From Neobacillus driksii (GTDB lineage: Bacteria > Bacillota > Bacilli > Bacillales > Cytobacillaceae), in assembly GCF_013409995.1 (NCBI RefSeq), contig NZ_JACCBX010000005.1, forward strand, positions 372,001-436,000: a DNA stretch of 64,000 bases, given 5' to 3'. Shown here piece after piece: positions 24,989 through 36,536 of the stretch. Below the pieces are notes generated by a model. The model made no database searches. It was not told the DNA's origin and saw nothing but the letters and a program-made list of their open reading frames with translations. The first letter of the stretch is position 1; each line of letters opens with the position of its first letter. The translations under genes were made by a program, and so were the position numbers.

Positions 24989-25002
24989 GTGATTATCTTC
25001 AC
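24989..25002. promoter_or_regulatory. FNR/CRP-type box, regulator-proximal
   Basis: A perfect GTGA-TTATCT-TCAC palindrome centred 70 bases before the regulator start codon. It overlaps the first copy of a 21-base direct repeat (24997-25017 and 25041-25061, CTTCACAAAACGTTCAATTTT). The distance suits activation or autoregulation of the minus-strand gene. Confidence 0.75.
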
Positions 25003-25061
25003 AAAACGTTCAATTTTTAAAACACTTACATATCAATACCCTTCACAAAACGTTCAATTTT
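24997..25061. repeat. Two 21-base direct repeats in the divergent nos promoter
   Basis: CTTCACAAAACGTTCAATTTT occurs at 24997-25017 and 25041-25061, 44 bases apart start to start, about four helical turns. The first copy supplies the TCAC half of the 24989 box; the second has no GTGA partner. Confidence 0.85.
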
Positions 25062-25148: not shown

Positions 25149-25592
25149 ATGAATAAGGTAATTATTAGCTTTGCGATTAGCTTAGTCATTGGTTTTGGTC
25201 TTGGATACGTGGTATTTGGTGTCATCATGGGCGATTCAGCTAAACAGCCTCAGGTCGCTCAAACAGAACCAACAGATGCAACTATCACAACAGAAAAGCA
25301 AGAAACAGAGGCAGTAAAGGAAACGGCTTCCGTAGATGAAGCAAATATACTCAACAGTAAAGGATGTCTAGGCTGTCACGCAGTGGATGCACTCGGTTTA
25401 GAAGGTGGAGCAACAGGACCTGATCTTTCAAAAGCCTTTACAGATGTTGAAGGAAAGCATGGAAAGCCGATTGAAGAATTCTTAAAAGAGCCAACATCAG
25501 CGGTTATGTCCGGCGTTATCGGCGGTAACCCATTAACAGATGAAGAACGCACGCAAGTGTTAGATATGTTAAAACAAGCTTCTGAAAAATAA
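25149..25592 (+). CDS. Membrane-anchored monoheme cytochrome c of the nos cluster (NosC-like)
   Basis: A 147-residue protein. Residues 5-27 are an uncleaved transmembrane anchor (IISFAISLVIGFGLGYVVFG). A Glu/Thr-rich linker of about 40 residues follows, then a class I cytochrome c domain with heme site CLGCH at residues 73-77 and a likely distal Met in SAVMSGVIGG. It faces outward and probably hands electrons to the CuA site of NosZ, 16 bases downstream. It is the first gene of the nos operon, behind an FNR-type box. Confidence 0.9.
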   Translation: MNKVIISFAISLVIGFGLGYVVFGVIMGDSAKQPQVAQTEPTDATITTEKQETEAVKETASVDEANILNSKGCLGCHAVDALGLEGGATGPDLSKAFTDVEGKHGKPIEEFLKEPTSAVMSGVIGGNPLTDEERTQVLDMLKQASEK

Positions 25593-25608
25593 AAAGGTGG
25601 TGTTATAG

Positions 25609-27477
25609 ATGAAGAAATGGGTTCCAATTGCCTCTGGTTTACTAGCGGGTTTTGTCGCAGCAACCATTTCCTTTGCCGATTTTTCTACTAGTACAAACAA
25701 TCAAGTTGCTTCATCCAGTACAAAAAGTGACGCAGAGAAAGTTTATGTTCCTTTCGGTGAAAAAGATGATTACTACTTATTCGCATCCGGTGGTCACTCT
25801 GGTCAAATGTTTATCTATGGTGTTCCTTCCATGCGTCATATCCGTACCGTACCGGTATTCTCACAAGACTCTGCAACAGGCTATGGATTTGACGAACATT
25901 CTAAAAAGATGATGGGCGGCTACACATGGGGAGACCTTCATCATCCTGCATTCTCTGAAACAAAAGGTGACTATGACGGTAAATATATGTTTGCTACAGA
26001 TGTCGGAAACAGCCGTGCTGCAGCAATGGATTTAGAAACGTTTACCGTTAAAGACATCATTAATGTTCCAAACACAAGCGGCCCGCACTGTGCGGCGTTC
26101 GTTACGGAAAATACCGAGTACATGTTCCTACCAACACGTTTCGCGGTTCCCATCGGCTCTGAATACAAGCCTTTAGACGAATACAGCCAGCAGTACCGCG
26201 GTGTAATGTCAGCCGTAACGTTTGATCAAAACCAAGAAAAACTAAACATTGCCTACCAAGTTGCGCTTCCACCATGGTCTTATGATTTATCAGACGCTGG
26301 TAAGAAAAGCTCTGCAGATTGGGCCGTTATGACAACCTACAACACAGAAGAAGCGACTACGAATCTAGAAATTAACGCGTCACAGGCTGACCGTGACTTC
26401 ATTGTTCTTTTTAACTGGAAAGAGCTTGAGAAAATGATCGCTGAAGGACAGTATGACGAAGTTACTGGTCAAAAAATGATCTTCCCTGAGAAGCATAAAG
26501 GCGGTATTTACCTTGTTCCTGTTGCGAAATCACCACATGGTGTCGACGTAACGCCTGATGGAAAACACTTTATTGCTTCAGGTAAACTAGCACCATCGAT
26601 GACAGTTTTCTCTTTTGAGAAAGCATTTGAAGCTGTGAAAAACCAAGACTTCTCCGGCGAACGTAACGGTATTCCAATCTTAAAATATGAATCTGTCATG
26701 GAAAGAGAGGTTAACCCTGAAAACGCACTTGGACCGCTTCACACTCAATTTGATGATAAAGGAATGGCTTACACAACCATGTTCATTTCTTCGGAAATCG
26801 TGAAATGGGATCCAAAAACAGGAGAAACGTTAGACCGTGTTCCCGTTCAGTATTCACCGGGACACTCTGTAGCAGCCGAAGGTGACACGGTTTCACCTGA
26901 TGGAAAATGGCTGATTGCCTTGAACAAAATTGCAAAAGACAGCTATTTATCCGTTGGACCTTCACATCCTGAGTCTATGCAGCTAATCGATATCAGCGGC
27001 AAAATGAAGGTCATTCAATCTTCACCTGTAAACCCAGAGCCGCACTACGCTCAAATCATTAAGGCAGATAAGATTAAAACGATTGAAGTTTATCCAAAGG
27101 ATGAAAACAACAAGCTTGCGACCTACAAGCAAGAGGATGCGAAAATTGTCCGCAATGGAAATGAAGTTCATGTCTACGGTATCGCCATGCGGTCGAAGTT
27201 TATCTTTGACGCGAAAGCAAAACGTCCGGATGTGATTGAAGTCAATCAAGGAGATAAGGTGTTCATCCACTTAACGAATACAGATTTTGATGAGGATATT
27301 ACCCACGGATTTGCCATCAACAGCTATAACTTAAACATGGAAGTTCAGCCTGGCCAAACGAATACGCTAGAATTTACTGCAGACAAAGCAGGTACATTCC
27401 CGCTTTACTGTACTAACTTCTGTTCAGCACTGCACCAAGAAATGACTGGCTACTTCCTTGTTAAACCTAAGAACTAG
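25609..27477 (+). CDS. nosZ: Nitrous oxide reductase NosZ (clade II, Sec-type signal)
   Basis: A 622-residue enzyme that reduces N2O to N2. The N-terminal hydrophobic segment KKWVPIASGLLAGFVAATIS has no twin arginine, the mark of clade II NosZ exported by Sec. The beta-propeller carries the CuZ histidines in GGHSGQ, DLHHPAF, SGPHCA, SPHGVD, GPLHTQ, SPGHS and EPHYAQ. The C-terminal cupredoxin has the CuA set CTNFCSALHQEM (Cys601, Cys605, His609, Met612). Both metal sites look complete. AAAGGTGG precedes the ATG. Confidence 0.97.
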   Translation: MKKWVPIASGLLAGFVAATISFADFSTSTNNQVASSSTKSDAEKVYVPFGEKDDYYLFASGGHSGQMFIYGVPSMRHIRTVPVFSQDSATGYGFDEHSKKMMGGYTWGDLHHPAFSETKGDYDGKYMFATDVGNSRAAAMDLETFTVKDIINVPNTSGPHCAAFVTENTEYMFLPTRFAVPIGSEYKPLDEYSQQYRGVMSAVTFDQNQEKLNIAYQVALPPWSYDLSDAGKKSSADWAVMTTYNTEEATTNLEINASQADRDFIVLFNWKELEKMIAEGQYDEVTGQKMIFPEKHKGGIYLVPVAKSPHGVDVTPDGKHFIASGKLAPSMTVFSFEKAFEAVKNQDFSGERNGIPILKYESVMEREVNPENALGPLHTQFDDKGMAYTTMFISSEIVKWDPKTGETLDRVPVQYSPGHSVAAEGDTVSPDGKWLIALNKIAKDSYLSVGPSHPESMQLIDISGKMKVIQSSPVNPEPHYAQIIKADKIKTIEVYPKDENNKLATYKQEDAKIVRNGNEVHVYGIAMRSKFIFDAKAKRPDVIEVNQGDKVFIHLTNTDFDEDITHGFAINSYNLNMEVQPGQTNTLEFTADKAGTFPLYCTNFCSALHQEMTGYFLVKPKN

Positions 27478-27479
27478 CA

Positions 27480-27600
27480 GAAAAGCGGAAACGCCTTGGT
27501 CAGGGGCGACAGGCATAAGACGAGCCGGCGGAAAGGTTGCTTTTTAACCTTTCTGACGGATTGGCTTATGACCCGAGCCCCTAGGCGTTGGAGCTAGACA
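27480..27600. repeat. Dispersed imperfect-palindromic intergenic repeat, copy 3 (inverted)
   Basis: Starts AAAAGCGGAAACGCCTTGGT and ends GCGTTGGAGCTAGACA, the reverse complement of copies 1 and 2, with GGCATAAGACGAGCC, GGATTGGCTTATGACCCGAG and a central AAAGGTTgctttttAACCTTT hairpin. It sits immediately after the nosZ stop, inside the nos operon. Confidence 0.85.
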
Positions 27601-27614
27601 TTAAAAAAGATGGT

Positions 27615-27645
27615 AAGGGTATCAATTGATTCAATTGGTACCCTT
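27615..27645. terminator. Hairpin between nosZ and the NosB-like gene
   Basis: AAGGGTATCAATT and AATTGGTACCCTT pair with one mismatch around a 5-base loop. CTCCGTTT follows rather than a U run, so it is a weak terminator at best. With repeat copy 3 it could lower expression of the maturation genes relative to nosZ. Confidence 0.5.
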
Positions 27646-27671
27646 CTCCGTTTAGAAAGGACTTGTTTTTC

Positions 27672-28238
27672 ATGAAGGGAAAAAAACTATCCCTACTTTC
27701 ATCGATACTGATTGCCCTTGCTGCAGTCTTAGTTGGACTTTCATTGATGTTTCCTTGGTGGCAAATGATCTTCTTTGCTCCGCAGTATCCAGAAGGGTTA
27801 AATATTATTGTTTATCCCAATAAGCTCGAAGGTCAGATTGATATCGTTAACGGGTTGAACCACTATATTGGAATGGAAAATTTCAGCGAAGAAAATTTCC
27901 CAGAATTAGCGTATCTATCACATTTAGTGATTGGTTTAGCAGTAATTACTCTATTGACAGCCATCCTGCGAAAGAAATCTGTCCTATATGGATTAATTGG
28001 TTTGTTTATCATTGGCGGCAGTCTTGGTGTTTGGGACCTATCACGTGCCCTTCGTAAATTTGGCACCAACTTAAGCCCAACGGCACCGATAAAAATTGAC
28101 CCGTTTGTTCCGCCGCTTTTAGGGCATAACACAGTTGCAAACTTTGTCACTGAAAGTATCCTTGGGTACGGTTCGTATTTCCTGATTGCAGCCTTTATTT
28201 TATTACTGATTCCGTTATGGAAGGATCGAACAAGATGA
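27672..28238 (+). CDS. Four-helix membrane protein of the nos cluster (NosB-like)
   Basis: A 188-residue protein with four hydrophobic segments (about residues 7-25, 75-95, 103-122 and 160-180) and a long outside loop after the first. It lies directly after nosZ and overlaps nosD by 4 bases (ATGA). Clade II nos clusters such as that of Wolinella have a polytopic membrane protein NosB in this position, so NosB is the best guess by context; I cannot confirm it by sequence motifs. The ATG at 27672 is 11 bases after AGAAAGG; a TTG three codons earlier is too close to that site. Confidence 0.65.
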   Translation: MKGKKLSLLSSILIALAAVLVGLSLMFPWWQMIFFAPQYPEGLNIIVYPNKLEGQIDIVNGLNHYIGMENFSEENFPELAYLSHLVIGLAVITLLTAILRKKSVLYGLIGLFIIGGSLGVWDLSRALRKFGTNLSPTAPIKIDPFVPPLLGHNTVANFVTESILGYGSYFLIAAFILLLIPLWKDRTR

Positions 28239-29575
28239 AAAAACTACTGCTTTTTCTATTCATTTTCTCTATTACTTTTCTTATATTTCCCGAGAAAAAT
28301 AGTGCTGCCGAAAACTTGCAGGCCATGATCGACAGCTTGGAAGAAGGAGCAGTATTACAACTTGAAAATAAAACATATGAGGGCAATATTGTTATCAATA
28401 AATCAATCACCTTAATTGGCACTATTAACACAGTGATAAAGGGAGATGGTACTGGAAACGTCATCTCTATTAAAGCTCCTAACGTGACAATTAAATGGCT
28501 TAGTGTCACAAATAGCAGCATGGACCGTAACTCTGCCGAGGAGTATGCAGGGATTAAGATTCATACTAACGGGAATGTCATTGAAAACGTTAAAATTACC
28601 GATTCCTTTCACGGGATCTATTTAAGTCAAGCACACGAAAATAAAATCTCCCATGTTGAGATCAAAGGCATGGGTAAAGGCGAGATTGCCGCACAGGGTA
28701 ATGGGATTCATATATATTACTCCAATCAAAATCTTTTAACACATAACACCATCGAAGGTACGCGCGATGGCATGTTTTTCGACTATGGTAACAAGAATGA
28801 AAGCTATCAAAATAATATTAGTAACACCCGGTACGGTCTGCACTACATGTATTCAGATGAAAATCTTTTTAAGAAAAATACCTTTACGATGAATACGGGC
28901 GGCGCTGCGGTCATGAATTCCAACCATCTCGTATTGGAAGATAATCATTTTATCGTAAACTATGGAAACCAATCATTTGGATTACTGCTGCTGCAAGCCA
29001 ATGATAATCAGATAAAAAATAATACGTTTTACATGAACCAAAGAGGAATGTACATCGACCAAGCTACAAGAAACAGTTTTGAAGGCAATAAAATCTCTCA
29101 AAATCAAATTGGAATTGAGCTTTGGGCGAGTTCTAATGAGCAAATATTTTCAAAAAATTTAATTACCGAAAATACTATTCCCGCTGTTACCATTGGTGGC
29201 GGTGATGAAAGCAATTTCTGGAGCCATAATGGCAAAGGAAATGACTGGGGAAGCTCGTTCCCGCTCACCGATTTAAACCAAGATGGCATTGGGGACTTTC
29301 CTATAACCTATCGATCTTCGTTATATCAATTACTTGAAGATCAAGAATTATCCTATTTATTTTTAAAAAGCCCTGCACTGCCTATCTATGAAAAAATGAA
29401 TGCGGTATTGATGGACGAAAAGGTTATGTTTGATGACCCGCACCCGCTTACCGCCGCAAAAAGAAATAACCATCTCATACTAATAGCCGCTGTAACGCTG
29501 GCCGCAGTTTTGATTTTATTAAAAGGGAGACATTTACTATGCATTACATTTGGAAGGAATGGAAGGAAAACATAA
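28235..29575 (+). CDS. nosD: NosD copper-enzyme maturation protein
   Basis: A 446-residue exported protein from the ATG at 28235 with signal peptide KKLLLFLFIFSITFLIF and cleavage near NSAAE. The body is a right-handed beta-helix built of repeats like GNVIENVKITDSFHGIYLS and NQNLLTHNTIEGTRDGMFF (CASH/NosD domain). A C-terminal membrane anchor (HLILIAAVTLAAVLILL) is present. NosD works with NosFY to deliver sulfur for the CuZ site of NosZ. It overlaps the NosB-like gene and nosY (by 37 bases). Confidence 0.95.
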   Translation: MKKLLLFLFIFSITFLIFPEKNSAAENLQAMIDSLEEGAVLQLENKTYEGNIVINKSITLIGTINTVIKGDGTGNVISIKAPNVTIKWLSVTNSSMDRNSAEEYAGIKIHTNGNVIENVKITDSFHGIYLSQAHENKISHVEIKGMGKGEIAAQGNGIHIYYSNQNLLTHNTIEGTRDGMFFDYGNKNESYQNNISNTRYGLHYMYSDENLFKKNTFTMNTGGAAVMNSNHLVLEDNHFIVNYGNQSFGLLLLQANDNQIKNNTFYMNQRGMYIDQATRNSFEGNKISQNQIGIELWASSNEQIFSKNLITENTIPAVTIGGGDESNFWSHNGKGNDWGSSFPLTDLNQDGIGDFPITYRSSLYQLLEDQELSYLFLKSPALPIYEKMNAVLMDEKVMFDDPHPLTAAKRNNHLILIAAVTLAAVLILLKGRHLLCITFGRNGRKT

Positions 29576-30336
29576 GAGGAAAAGGCTTATGGCTCGCTTT
29601 AAGTATCATTGTTCTGATTTCAGTCAGTATCCTGTTTCGTTCCACGGCCCTTTCATTTGATAAAGGCTTTTATGTTCTCTTAATCAATTTGTTTGATACG
29701 ATTATCTATTTTATCCCGATCCTTTGCTTGTTTATTGGTGCATTCTCAATCTTTCAAGAAAAGGAACAAAAGACTTTAATCATGCTGCTGACAAAAAAAG
29801 ATCATTATACAAGCTTCTTGTTACGAAAAAGCTTAGGTCTCTACACGGTTGTACTTGTTCCCATCTTAGTCTGGTTCTTTCTCTATTTACTATTATTAAA
29901 GTTTAATTTCCAACTTGATATAAAGGCTTATTTCATCTTTATTTTGGCAATTGTAGCGATGTCACTTGTATTCCTGCAAATGGGTGCTGCCATCGGAAGC
30001 TTTAGCCGCTCCAGAATGCAGATCATCGGATATACGATTTTTGTCTGGTTTTACTTTTTCTTCTTACACGATTTTCTCTTACTCTCATTGCTGCCAGACG
30101 TTACCTATGAAAATGTAAAAGTATTTTCTGCCGGCTATTTTTTAAATCCATTACAGTCTGTAAGAATGTTCCTCGAAACAGGCATGGGTGTTTATTCTTT
30201 TGGTCATATGTCAAGGCTGCTCCAAGCCTTTATGTGGACGAAGCCAGTATTCTTTTTACTCGGAAATCTAGTATTTTGGATCATTACTTCTATCGCAGCA
30301 GGTATTATTTTTCACCGTAAGGAGGGCCTTGAATGA
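29539..30336 (+). CDS. nosY: NosY ABC transporter permease
   Basis: A 265-residue membrane protein with six hydrophobic segments, ABC-2 type (FIGAFSIFQEKEQKTLIMLL after the second helix). It forms the membrane channel of the NosFY transporter, which powers NosD. AAAGGGAG lies upstream inside the nosD coding end. The stop overlaps nosF by 4 bases. Confidence 0.92.
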   Translation: MHYIWKEWKENIRGKGLWLALSIIVLISVSILFRSTALSFDKGFYVLLINLFDTIIYFIPILCLFIGAFSIFQEKEQKTLIMLLTKKDHYTSFLLRKSLGLYTVVLVPILVWFFLYLLLLKFNFQLDIKAYFIFILAIVAMSLVFLQMGAAIGSFSRSRMQIIGYTIFVWFYFFFLHDFLLLSLLPDVTYENVKVFSAGYFLNPLQSVRMFLETGMGVYSFGHMSRLLQAFMWTKPVFFLLGNLVFWIITSIAAGIIFHRKEGLE

Positions 30337-31010
30337 TTACGGTATCGGGTCTAAATCAATCCTTCGGGAAAAAAATAATCCTGGAGAATATCAATATTGA
30401 GATAAATAAAAATGAAATTTGTGCACTTGTGGGACGTAATGGTGCAGGAAAGTCAACTTTTATCAACAGTCTTCTTGGTCTGCTTCCTGTGAAGCAGGGT
30501 TCGATTTCGATAAACGGTGTTCAAGTCACAAATAAAAATCATGAATGGAAAAAAGCAATTGCCTACTTGCCAGAAAAATTTCAGCTCTATCCAATGCTGA
30601 CTGGTCTAGAGAATATTACCTTCTTTGCTGAAGCAGTTTCCAAGACAGTTGACCAGGAAAGAATGGAGAAAGTCCTTAAATCGGTAAGCTTGTGGGATGA
30701 CCGCGATGTACAGGTGAAAAAATATTCAAAAGGCATGCTGCAGCGCCTTGGATTAGCCATCACCCTTTATCAGGATTCGAGTATTCTGATTCTCGATGAG
30801 CCTACAAGCGGGATTGACCCGATGGGACGAAAGGAAATATTAGAAGTGTTAAAGTCACTCCATGATAAAACCATCCTGCTCTCCTCTCATCATCTCGATG
30901 AAATTAAACAGGTTTGTACGCATGTGGCGTTCTTAAATAATGGAAAAATGGAGAAATATACGGTGGAGGAATTCTTACAAACACATAATCTTGGAGGGAT
31001 AGAATCATGA
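30333..31010 (+). CDS. nosF: NosF ABC transporter ATP-binding protein
   Basis: A 225-residue ATPase: Walker A GRNGAGKST near residue 35, signature YSKGMLQRL, and Walker B ILILDEPTSGIDP. It drives NosY. ATGA overlaps with nosY upstream and with the lipoprotein gene downstream show a tightly coupled operon. Confidence 0.94.
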   Translation: MITVSGLNQSFGKKIILENINIEINKNEICALVGRNGAGKSTFINSLLGLLPVKQGSISINGVQVTNKNHEWKKAIAYLPEKFQLYPMLTGLENITFFAEAVSKTVDQERMEKVLKSVSLWDDRDVQVKKYSKGMLQRLGLAITLYQDSSILILDEPTSGIDPMGRKEILEVLKSLHDKTILLSSHHLDEIKQVCTHVAFLNNGKMEKYTVEEFLQTHNLGGIES

Positions 31011-31909
31011 AAAAAGCGATGAGGTTGACCGCACTGCTATTATTTGCTTTACTTACAGGCTGCAGTGCTGACCCTGAGTACAATATTGAAATCACAAAGC
31101 CAATCTACCAACAGCCAGATAAAGAAATGCCTTTTGAAATTCAAGTAAAGGAAAAGGATGAGCGTGCAACTGGGCTGGACGTATCAGCAGAATTTTCTAT
31201 GGCCAATATGGACCATGGGATGACAAAAGTCGAACTAACAGAAGGGGAAGCTGGCACTTATTCTGGAAAGGTTGAACTCCCGATGCCAGGTAAATATGAA
31301 ATACTGTTCAACTTGGGAAAAGATGGAGAAAAAACTGAAAAAGTCATTAGTTATGAAGTGAAAAAACCAGAGGGTGTTGCTTCAATTAACGGAGAATGGA
31401 TTACCGATGAAGATGTAGACTTCTATAAGTTTATTAATAATCTTCAGCTTGCCATTAATCGTGAAACAGACCAGAAGCGATACACAGGGGAGCAATTGAA
31501 GGAAGCATTAGCATACTGGGAGTCACAAGAAAAGCTGGTTGAAGATCAAAATCAATTATTAACACAAATCATCCGCCTCCGCTCAATGGCAATGCTGGCA
31601 GAAGAAAAAGGCCATACCGCAACCGACGCGGAAATCGAAACAGAGATCAATAAGGTCCGTGCCCAATACGACCAGTTCGAATCTGCTAAAGCCATGATCA
31701 CCGAATACGGCGAAGAGAAATTTTGGGAAACCGAAAAACAGCAATACCAACTCATTGTTCTCTCTCAAAAAGTACAAAAAGACATGATCGAAAAAGTAAA
31801 AAAAGAAAACCCAGAAATGAGCCAACAAGAAATCAACCTCCAAGCCCAAAAACAATACGAAGAACTCCTAGTATCACAGGTTAACTCTTTAAAAATAGAA
31901 ATCCTATAA
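31007..31909 (+). CDS. Lipoprotein with YtkA/FixH-like and SurA-N-like domains, last gene of the nos operon
   Basis: 300 residues. The lipobox LLTGCS ends a 20-residue signal peptide. About residues 25-120 look like a YtkA/FixH beta domain (FEIQVKEKDERATGLDVSAE, then FSMANMDHGMTKVEL with a Met/His cluster, then PMPGKYEILFNLG). About residues 125-300 are helical and resemble the N-terminal chaperone part of SurA/PrsA (VASINGEWITDEDVDFYKF, then IEKVKKENPEMSQQEI). It occupies the place where NosL, the copper lipoprotein, is often found. A copper-handling or folding role outside the membrane is inference. The domain match was made by eye. Confidence 0.7.
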   Translation: MKKAMRLTALLLFALLTGCSADPEYNIEITKPIYQQPDKEMPFEIQVKEKDERATGLDVSAEFSMANMDHGMTKVELTEGEAGTYSGKVELPMPGKYEILFNLGKDGEKTEKVISYEVKKPEGVASINGEWITDEDVDFYKFINNLQLAINRETDQKRYTGEQLKEALAYWESQEKLVEDQNQLLTQIIRLRSMAMLAEEKGHTATDAEIETEINKVRAQYDQFESAKAMITEYGEEKFWETEKQQYQLIVLSQKVQKDMIEKVKKENPEMSQQEINLQAQKQYEELLVSQVNSLKIEIL

Positions 31910-31932: not shown

Positions 31933-31980
31933 CCAAATATACAAAAAACGCTGCATAAACAGCGATTTTTGTATATTTGG
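31933..31980. terminator. Bidirectional terminator after the nos operon
   Basis: A 21-base inverted repeat (CCAAATATACAAAAAACGCTG at 31933-31953 against 31960-31980, 20 of 21 paired) with a 6-base loop. The arms contain A5 and T5 runs. Confidence 0.8.
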
Positions 31981-34943: not shown

Positions 34944-35084
34944 CCTGAACACCCCTTTATAAAATTGGGATATTATTACATATTTACGTTATTAACTGTC
35001 ATAAATTAGACTATTTTTCTTCATATCATCTATATAACTTCTCTATATTCTTTAGCTATCATGATACATTGGAGGAAAAAAACA

Positions 35085-36536
35085 ATGGTTAAGCGAAAAA
35101 TAGTAGCATCTCTAGGGATTATAACAGCCGTTCTCTCTGCTCTCTTAATTAGCGGTTGTGCCCAAAAAGAGGCAGCTGCAACAAAGGAAAAGACAGTAAC
35201 ACCTAAAACCGAAGAACTGAGCATGGATGAAAAACTCGCCGGAGGGAAACTAGGCAGTGAAAGTCTAGCATATGTTGGCGGCGGCTCTAGCAATAAAATT
35301 TGGGTAATTGATGCAAAATACCATAAAATGCTGACTGCTATTGATATTGAAGGACCTAAGAATGAAAGAACGCAACAAATGTATCCTAACCTGCACGATA
35401 CCCATGCCGTTACATTTACAAAAGACTTTAAAACGATGTTTACTGTAGATTGGTTTGAATATGATGACACTTCAAACGCGATTGCACTTGATCCTGTTAC
35501 ATTTAAAGAATTATGGAGAGTTCCAGTGGGTAAGGGCGGCCATCACTCTGCACTGTCTCCTGATGATAAATACCTTTATGTAGCAAACCAGTACGGCGGT
35601 ACTGTGTCAGTCGTAGATGTCCATTCGCATACGAAAATAGCAGACATATCTACTGGAGAAGGTACAGACTATATTTCTCCATCCATGTACTGGGATGGAA
35701 ACGCCATTGACTCTCCTTATCTATTTATCAGTATTGACAAAGAAGATAAGGTAGCAGTACTAGATTGGAAAAACAACAAAATTGTTAAGGAAATTCCAGT
35801 TGGCGGCAGCCTGCACGGAGTCAACCTTACACCAGACGGTAAATCAGTTTGGGTAGCAGTTGGCGGTAAAAAGGAAGTTGTCGTTATTGACGCTGCCACT
35901 CTCGAAATCACAAAACAAATTTCATTTGAAGGCGGTCCTATTCACATATCCCTCAGCCCAGATAGTAAATTTGCTTACGTAACCACTGGAGGCAACAAGA
36001 TTTACAAGCTCGATACGAAAACCTATGAAAAACTGTGGGAATCAACTGGAACAACGATCCCTGCTCACACTGGGATAAGCCCAGACGGCAAGGAACTCTG
36101 GACATTAAATCATGGAATGGATAAACGTTATCCGTATAAACTTGGCGGCGAGGCAGTTTCTGGCGTTCAAATTTGGGATACTGAAACAGGAGAATTAATT
36201 ACCGAAATTCCTGCAGAAGGTGTACCACATGAAATTCAATTTGTTCCTTATTCAGCGCTAGTTGATGAAGTACCTTTAAGCAGTGAAGAAGTCCACTCAC
36301 AAGGAACCCATTCTGTAGCTGAGGCAGGAGAATTTGTCTATAAAAAAAGCTGTGCTTCCTGTCATGGTGATCAGCTAGAAGGCAAAGCTGGTCCTACTTT
36401 AAAAACAATCGGCAGTCAGCTATCTAAAAAAGGAATCCTAACACGTATTCAAGATGGTAAAGGCATGATGCCTGGTAAGTTAGTTGACGAGACAGATGCA
36501 AAAATTCTAGCTACTTGGTTATCCGAAAAAAAATAA
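35085..36536 (+). CDS. Lipoprotein with YVTN/cytochrome-d1-like beta-propeller and C-terminal cytochrome c
   Basis: 483 residues. The signal peptide ends at lipobox LLISGCA. About residues 50-390 are a seven- or eight-bladed YVTN-type propeller (KYLYVANQYGGTVSVVDVHS, SVWVAVGGKKEVVVIDAATL, FAYVTTGGNKIYKLDTKTYE), similar to the d1-heme domain of NirS/NirN/NirF. About residues 400-483 are a class I cytochrome c with CASCHGDQLEGKAGPTL and a distal Met in GKGMMPGKLV. Domain order is opposite to that of NirS. A role as an exported electron carrier or redox enzyme in denitrification is plausible from context, not shown. The ATG at 35085 follows GGAGG. It is monocistronic. Confidence 0.82.
   Translation: MVKRKIVASLGIITAVLSALLISGCAQKEAAATKEKTVTPKTEELSMDEKLAGGKLGSESLAYVGGGSSNKIWVIDAKYHKMLTAIDIEGPKNERTQQMYPNLHDTHAVTFTKDFKTMFTVDWFEYDDTSNAIALDPVTFKELWRVPVGKGGHHSALSPDDKYLYVANQYGGTVSVVDVHSHTKIADISTGEGTDYISPSMYWDGNAIDSPYLFISIDKEDKVAVLDWKNNKIVKEIPVGGSLHGVNLTPDGKSVWVAVGGKKEVVVIDAATLEITKQISFEGGPIHISLSPDSKFAYVTTGGNKIYKLDTKTYEKLWESTGTTIPAHTGISPDGKELWTLNHGMDKRYPYKLGGEAVSGVQIWDTETGELITEIPAEGVPHEIQFVPYSALVDEVPLSSEEVHSQGTHSVAEAGEFVYKKSCASCHGDQLEGKAGPTLKTIGSQLSKKGILTRIQDGKGMMPGKLVDETDAKILATWLSEKK

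Follow-up and report, generated by a model that had tools for sequence, protein, structure and literature searches.

We analysed a window of 64,000 nucleotides from Neobacillus driksii (assembly GCF_013409995.1, contig NZ_JACCBX010000005.1), and the coordinates of this DNA are positions in the window. It contains a nos operon, whose nosZ product destroys the greenhouse gas nitrous oxide (N2O). The genes are ordered nosC-Z-B-D-Y-F and are followed, at the operon end, by the gene studied here, which encodes a lipoprotein that ends nos clusters in many bacilli. The ATG start of this gene falls inside the nosF stop codon (ATGA, 31007–31010), and the lipobox cysteine (C19) is invariant among 12 aligned proteins. 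These features agree with a preliminary description of the sequence, which reported a 300-residue lipoprotein as the last nos gene, coupled to nosF by ATGA, and proposed that it stands in for NosL. NosL, NosR and NosX had been reported as missing from the cluster, and none of them is among the family matches of the six other nos-cluster genes (25149–31010) at E ≤ 1; NosL (PF05573) is also not among the Pfam matches of the lipoprotein at this threshold. A nosL gene elsewhere that fully supports NosZ had been named as evidence against the proposed role, and NosL is absent from the whole genome at E ≤ 0.001.

The preliminary description divided the protein into a YtkA-like domain and a SurA-N-like helical part, and this division is supported by profiles and predicted structures. 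The N-terminal half matches PF13115 (YtkA) over residues 24–99 (E 5.1e-9) with 37.1 bits, above the Pfam gathering cut-off of 25.9. The AlphaFold model of the whole protein (55-row alignment) has a mean predicted local distance difference test score (pLDDT) of 93.1 and a predicted template modelling score (pTM) of 0.80, and the pLDDT of the YtkA part is 87–95 in blocks of ten. The best solved fold match to the YtkA half is the copper resistance protein CrdA (Foldseek E 1.4e-5), which can be superimposed with a Z-score (Z) of 11.3 and a root-mean-square deviation (rmsd) of 2.4 over 93 aligned residues. CrdA, which is also found by profile search (E 1.5e-5), has been solved both in the apo form and with silver ions.

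The Met/His cluster that had been picked out earlier (MANMDHGM) lies in this domain and, together with a later methionine, provides the putative Cu(I) ligands M65, M68, H70 and M93, which are assigned from sequence conservation. The ligands were counted only in two samples. The first avoids sampling by the lipoprotein itself and was collected through nosZ from two sets of 398 genomes, one drawn from the phylum and one from the class; these sets may overlap each other and the relatives. The collection yielded 25 clusters besides that of the window. Among its 14 distinct sequences, M65 and H70 are each found in 13 and M68 and M93 in all 14, with N for M65 in locus L180 and M for H70 in L165. The second sample comprises nine sequences found through whole-protein similarity, and all four residues are kept in 9/9. 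The loci L083–L160 were found with two patterns, one of which contains [FL][SE]M[ATE][NK]MDH, so that motif conservation in them is circular. The complete set is also present in 7/7 YtkA domains read outside nos clusters, which were found through similarity to the window lipoprotein. The long YtkA paralogues of relatives are fused to SCO1/SenC in all four cases scanned. These fusion lipoproteins (L040, L043, L044 and L046) form another case in which YtkA is joined to a copper factor; the SCO1-SenC domain is not among the Pfam matches of the window lipoprotein at E ≤ 1.

The C-terminal half was modelled alone because matches to the YtkA half prevailed when structures were searched with the whole model, where SurA appeared in one row (Z 8.9). 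The resulting model (41-row alignment) has a pLDDT of 96.2 and a pTM of 0.88 and was compared with the 384 chains ranked highest by Foldseek. The first 18 rows are all of the SurA type (Z 7.4 to 11.3, spanning residues 1–4 to 181 of the model) and comprise SurA, two further SurA-like peptidyl-prolyl isomerase (PPIase) entries, PpiD, PrsA, a Cj1289-type chaperone and a leptospiral protein; the match to 8pzv_F has a Z of 11.3 and an rmsd of 3.2 over 152 aligned residues. Next in the list are trigger factor and two further PrsA entries, and for unrelated folds Z is down to about 3. For a helical protein, a single Z of about 10 would carry little weight, and the Foldseek E-values are modest (best 2.7e-3, none below 0.001); the SurA assignment is made because the match list is consistent and Z drops sharply to unrelated folds. 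The alignment covers 147 of the 376 residues of SurA (1m5y_C) in the range 25–426 and therefore skips the middle parvulin domains. No rotamase family is among the Pfam matches of the lipoprotein at E ≤ 1, and the 181-residue model is fully used by the core alignment. Residues 120–300 are thus predicted to be a SurA chaperone core without a parvulin domain. SurA_N_3 (PF13624) is the commonest family match in the C-half alignment (16 of 41 members, best E 1.9e-5). The window C-half alone gives no SurA_N_3 match in Pfam at E ≤ 10, its profile matches no solved chain at E ≤ 10, and the whole-protein profile gives trigger factor at E 0.26 only. The SurA relation of the window protein rests on its relatives and on the predicted fold.

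Table 1. Features of the lipoprotein gene and the nos operon in the window.
Feature	Coordinates	Strand	Basis
YtkA + SurA-core lipoprotein gene, last of nos operon	31007..31909	+	open reading frame (ORF), 300 residues
Lipoprotein signal peptide	31007..31063	+	lipobox LLTGC, Cys19 codon 31061-31063, read from sequence
YtkA domain, residues 24-119, beta sandwich	31076..31363	+	PF13115, predicted model, CrdA match
Met/His cluster M65-A-N-M68-D69-H70-G-M72, putative Cu(I) ligands	31199..31222	+	sequence and conservation
M93, another putative Cu(I) ligand (PMxG motif)	31283..31285	+	conservation
SurA core domain, residues 120-300 (N-terminal helices and C-terminal helix, without parvulin)	31364..31906	+	predicted model
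nosF, ATP-binding cassette (ABC) ATPase	30333..31010	+	PF00005 E 1.1e-33; name from position after nosD, nosY
nosY, ABC-2 permease	29539..30336	+	PF12679 E 1.6e-12; name from position
nosD	28217..29575	+	TIGR04247 357 bits, cut-off 300
nosB-like protein	27663..28238	+	no family above cut-off; label from position after nosZ
nosZ, Sec-dependent type	25609..27477	+	TIGR04246 893 bits, cut-off 625
nosC, cytochrome c, CxxCH	25149..25592	+	Cytochrom_C E 0.0043, weak, under cut-off; position as in passages of PMC3475470
Terminator-like hairpin with T run, 3' of lipoprotein gene	31949..31964	+	consensus scan

To follow the gene across relatives, 100 genomes were searched, the window genome included, and a homologue whose best piece scores 230 bits or more was taken as long-type. 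Such a homologue is found in 53 of the 100 genomes. NosZ exceeds the cut-off in 52 genomes, and all of these carry the long-type homologue (52/52, in one of them in two pieces), compared with 1/48 of the genomes without nosZ. Because Fisher values take no account of relatedness, the counts are given without them. Two genomes without full nosZ (G014, which is L150, and G056) retain only a fragment of the lipoprotein gene; another fragment is present in L157, with no nosZ in the stretch. In N. pocheonensis (G047, L037/L134), the lipoprotein gene is in two ORFs, crp likewise, and nosC to nosF are whole. The overlap was measured in 74 loci where a YtkA-type gene comes after nosF, and it is exactly 4 bases in 58 of them. 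Some loci are repeats (L171 is L143, L173 is L139, and L033–L052 are partly L083–L160), and raw locus totals are therefore unused; L079 is scored as having none only because its contig ends.

NosL does not track nosZ in these 100 genomes, as it is found at E ≤ 0.001 in 22 of the 52 genomes with nosZ and in 17 of the 48 without. Nine NosL loci were read; nosZ is in the stretch in 0/9 and a nosD-like gene in 7/9, which agrees with the nosZ-free nosDLYF clusters described in passages of PMC3475470 and PMC13068155. The 25 nosZ-first clusters, scored with profiles built in this analysis, contain NosL in seven cases, a YtkA gene in 16, neither in two and both in none, and the clusters of the class sample have a YtkA gene in 16/20 and NosL in 2/20. 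All seven NosL clusters have NosD and no SurA-like gene in the stretch. NosL is located between nosD and nosY in six of the seven; the lipoprotein gene of the window lies after nosF. Genome-wide at E ≤ 0.001, NosL is absent from 9/16 YtkA-type genomes and YtkA is absent from 4/7 NosL-type genomes. At the cluster level, this distribution is suggestive of a YtkA lipoprotein that takes the place of NosL.

The two halves also occur as separate genes. The 16 YtkA clusters comprise 12 with adjacent YtkA and SurA-like genes, one fusion and three with YtkA alone. Since 12 of the 13 two-part clusters encode the halves separately and side by side, the window gene represents a conserved pair in fused form. 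The preliminary description had suggested looking for the fusion in other nos clusters, and the relatives with two genes further support its two-domain reading. Like the fused gene, the split-pair genes lie in the nos operon; they overlap by 4 bases in L139, L149, L152 and L155. The second gene of the pair encodes 215–303 residues (16 loci read), and 25 of 32 C-half ORFs without a YtkA part, remnants included, have their own lipobox by a simple pattern. A pair of proteins encoded by one fused gene in some species and by neighbouring genes in others usually has a joint function. The fused and split states require at least three changes on the NosZ trees and four on the C-half tree, with several weakly supported nodes; since the well-supported branches of the 64-row NosZ tree force only one change for the fused state, we claim neither a direction nor a number of fusions. 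The rows of the NosZ trees are a chosen subset of loci. L137 (broken short nosZ) and L121 (duplicate) were left out of both trees, the long-branched L165 and L180 were additionally left out of the 64-row tree, and L122, in which nosZ is split into two ORFs, is represented by the longer of them. The YtkA-alone genes are found in distant nosZ clusters without NosL (L165, 8046–8453; L180, 12299–12841; L185, 11914–12297).

Taken together, these results make it somewhat probable that the lipoprotein is a maturation factor dedicated to NosZ, which would deliver copper in the place of NosL and hold Sec-exported apo-NosZ. The proposal is favoured because of the linkage to nosZ and the cluster-level exclusion of NosL, because of the near-invariant Met/His set, the CrdA fold, the YtkA-SCO1/SenC paralogues, the SurA core and the split pair, and because NosL is independent of nosZ genome-wide and the NosZ is of the Sec-dependent family. 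Anchored in the membrane, the lipoprotein would serve the neighbouring N2O reductase: the YtkA domain would bind Cu(I) through the Met/His site and pass it to NosD/NosZ, as NosL does in other nos clusters, and the fused SurA core, without an isomerase domain, would hold NosZ emerging unfolded from the Sec channel. Copper would thereby be offered to NosZ while the enzyme folds. Clade II NosZ is exported by the Sec route, which carries unfolded proteins (passages of PMC11096178), and the window NosZ matches the Sec-dependent family, so that a chaperone core could hold the arriving enzyme. The analysis establishes the domains (profile and predicted fold), conservation, operon position, nosZ linkage, the absence of NosL alongside and the two-gene pair; that the protein binds copper, passes it to NosD or NosZ and holds NosZ is inferred. 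More tentatively, the lipoprotein may be a metallochaperone and a folding chaperone in one, in which the SurA core catches the Sec-exported enzyme and the attached YtkA domain feeds it copper, coupling metal insertion to folding; the pair would act in trans as two lipoproteins in other bacilli, and this may be a common NosL-free route of NosZ maturation in the class. If the proposal is true, NosZ in these bacteria has a different copper donor and a dedicated chaperone, the gene would mark nos clusters that function in Gram-positive bacteria, and metal delivery could be separated experimentally from folding by means of the fused and split forms that occur in nature.

Several observations weigh against this proposal. 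Matches of the YtkA half to other immunoglobulin-like domains (complement C5, P19/FtrA, filamins) have Z 8 to 10; CrdA is the best match, the fold is common and therefore not copper-specific by itself. The other YtkA paralogue of the same genome (C3, L076) shows no M-x2-M motif within the 120 residues read. YtkA stands alone, without a SurA-like part, in 3 of the 25 clusters (L165, L180, L185), which indicates that the folding half is not always needed. Two of the 25 clusters (L179, L182) have neither NosL nor YtkA; in the L179 genome, YtkA is encoded elsewhere and NosL is matched weakly. The 22 of 52 nosZ genomes that hold NosL elsewhere could use it in trans. In the 64-row NosZ tree, a single branch (100/99) separates the NosL clusters from the others, and in the tree that includes L165 and L180 the NosL/YtkA states need two changes; with one or two switches, the exclusion is suggestive of replacement and is not replicated. 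The earlier proposal that the lipoprotein stands in for NosL is thus supported at the cluster level and for the window genome, which has no NosL, and is weakened by the few switches, the clusters with neither gene and the NosL genes elsewhere. Neither NosL nor the lipoprotein is encoded in the additional nos clusters of G020, G053 and G058; these genomes carry the lipoprotein gene in another cluster, whose copy the extra nosCZBDYF clusters presumably share. Finally, the one genome with a full-length copy and no nosZ among the 100, Neobacillus bataviensis LMG 21833 (G057, L093), has an intact orphan gene at L093 8001–8903. The orphan (also L067) adjoins a crp gene that is truncated; the stretch contains no nos genes, and the site looks like the scar of a deletion that removed nosC to nosF. 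According to passages of PMC3475470, this strain makes N2O and is without NosZ and its accessory proteins; the lipoprotein gene is not mentioned in those passages.

Two side observations concern the exceptional clusters. In L182, nosCZB is present and nosDYF is missing from the stretch; the genome has no NosL and no YtkA at E ≤ 0.001. The extra clusters (L063–L066) are second nosCZBDYF clusters in three genomes of the same genus and, in G058, also a third one; NosL and the lipoprotein are missing from them. The nosD gene of L065 and the nosZ gene of L066 are each split into two ORFs.

We consider it unlikely that the YtkA domain instead loads the CuA site of NosZ in the manner of CtaK, with the copper of CuZ coming from elsewhere and no substitution for NosL. 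A precedent is YtkA (CtaK) of B. subtilis, which is reported to help load CuA of cytochrome caa3 (passages of PMC13068155) and to be involved in metal loading of a cytochrome c oxidase (passages of PMC12362106); SCO proteins are also tied to CuA (passages of PMC13068155 and PMC6530538), and SCO1 is the fusion partner in the 4/4 long paralogues. However, NosL, which serves as the copper source for CuZ assembly and is described as CuZ-specific in P. denitrificans (passages of PMC6530538), is the gene that is missing where the lipoprotein is present, and a separate SCO-like gene is also found upstream in some clusters (L133, L138, L156).

Less probable still is a lipoprotein that only delivers copper and uses the SurA core as a docking arm to NosD, NosB or NosZ rather than as a holdase. 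The clusters with YtkA alone fit such an arm, as does the variable sequence of the C-half (mean column identity 37%, three invariant columns), but the model fits the SurA chaperone core along its full length, and the SurA-like part is a gene of its own beside YtkA in 12 of the 25 clusters, which a mere linker would presumably not need. NosD and NosC also act outside the membrane, and the position of the gene after nosF in the 74 measured loci would suit a SurA core that serves one of these products (the NosD beta-helix or NosC) rather than NosZ. We regard this as very unlikely given that NosD is present in 7/7 NosL-type clusters without a SurA-like gene in the stretch, although positive evidence favours neither client. 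A lipoprotein with a general role in copper handling or in the envelope, carried along with the operon and no more, would explain the intact orphan of N. bataviensis and is hardly credible in view of the linkage to nosZ (52/52 vs 1/48) and of the mere fragments left in G014, G056 and L157.

The nosB label, given to a membrane-type protein, follows the position after nosZ, as in passages of PMC3475470 and PMC11388526, and a nosB-like homologue is present in 24 of the 25 nosZ-first clusters. The nosC translation has a hydrophobic N-terminal stretch and no lipobox Cys. The hairpin at 31949 is weak evidence for a terminator, since 11 such sites are found in the region and 6.0 are expected. A perfect 20-bp direct repeat, TTCACAAAACGTTCAATTTT (24998–25017 and 25042–25061, 44 bp apart), lies between nosC and a divergent Crp/Fnr-type regulator gene and is a possible operator of this regulator. 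The region 35061–36536 encodes a lipobox-bearing protein in which a YncE-type beta-propeller is followed by a cytochrome c domain at the C-terminus. Its score of 120 bits in the 'clade III lactonase-type NosZ' model falls far short of the cut-off of 700; a comparable propeller-cytochrome lipoprotein is remarked on in Parageobacillus in passages of PMC13068155.

The replacement of NosL by a YtkA protein is already in print. Passages of PMC13068155 (2026, citing Liu 2008) state that in Geobacillus thermodenitrificans a YtkA-domain copper delivery protein replaces NosL, and the cluster is written as nosCZ-ORF-nosDYF-ORF in passages of PMC3475470. The terminal nos ORF of G. thermodenitrificans NG80-2 resembles the window gene in that L136 (DSM 465) carries the fused form in the same place with 39% identity; the SurA half is unmentioned in the literature passages. 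In addition, a Calidifontibacillus with two clusters is reported to have nosL in one of them, and nosL is absent from the genomes of the other thermospores of that study (passages of PMC11388526). No description of the SurA half, the split pair, the nosZ linkage or the exclusion counts was found in the open-licence literature.

The lipoprotein shares with NosL (PF05573) its lipoprotein nature and its genomic niche within nos clusters. In contrast to its beta sandwich, NosL has two beta-beta-alpha-beta domains (passages of PMC6530538), does not match it in sequence and has no chaperone domain. With YtkA/CtaK of B. subtilis and the YtkA-SCO1 fusions it shares PF13115, and M-x2-M-x-H with a later M-x-G is found in the seven paralogous domains (CtaK itself is not among them); their partner, however, is SCO1/SenC or none, and no nosZ match is found in the annotated stretches around the YtkA paralogues. 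CrdA of Helicobacter pylori (9ll2, 9ll4) folds like the YtkA half and, in the profile alignment, has methionines close to the motif, but it is a copper resistance protein of about 110 residues with no His at the H70 position of this alignment. SurA, PpiD and PrsA share the core chaperone fold, with the N-terminal part and the C-terminal helix, over all 181 residues of the model, whereas the window protein lacks the parvulin (PPIase) domain, is fused to a copper-type domain and is encoded in, and linked to, one operon.
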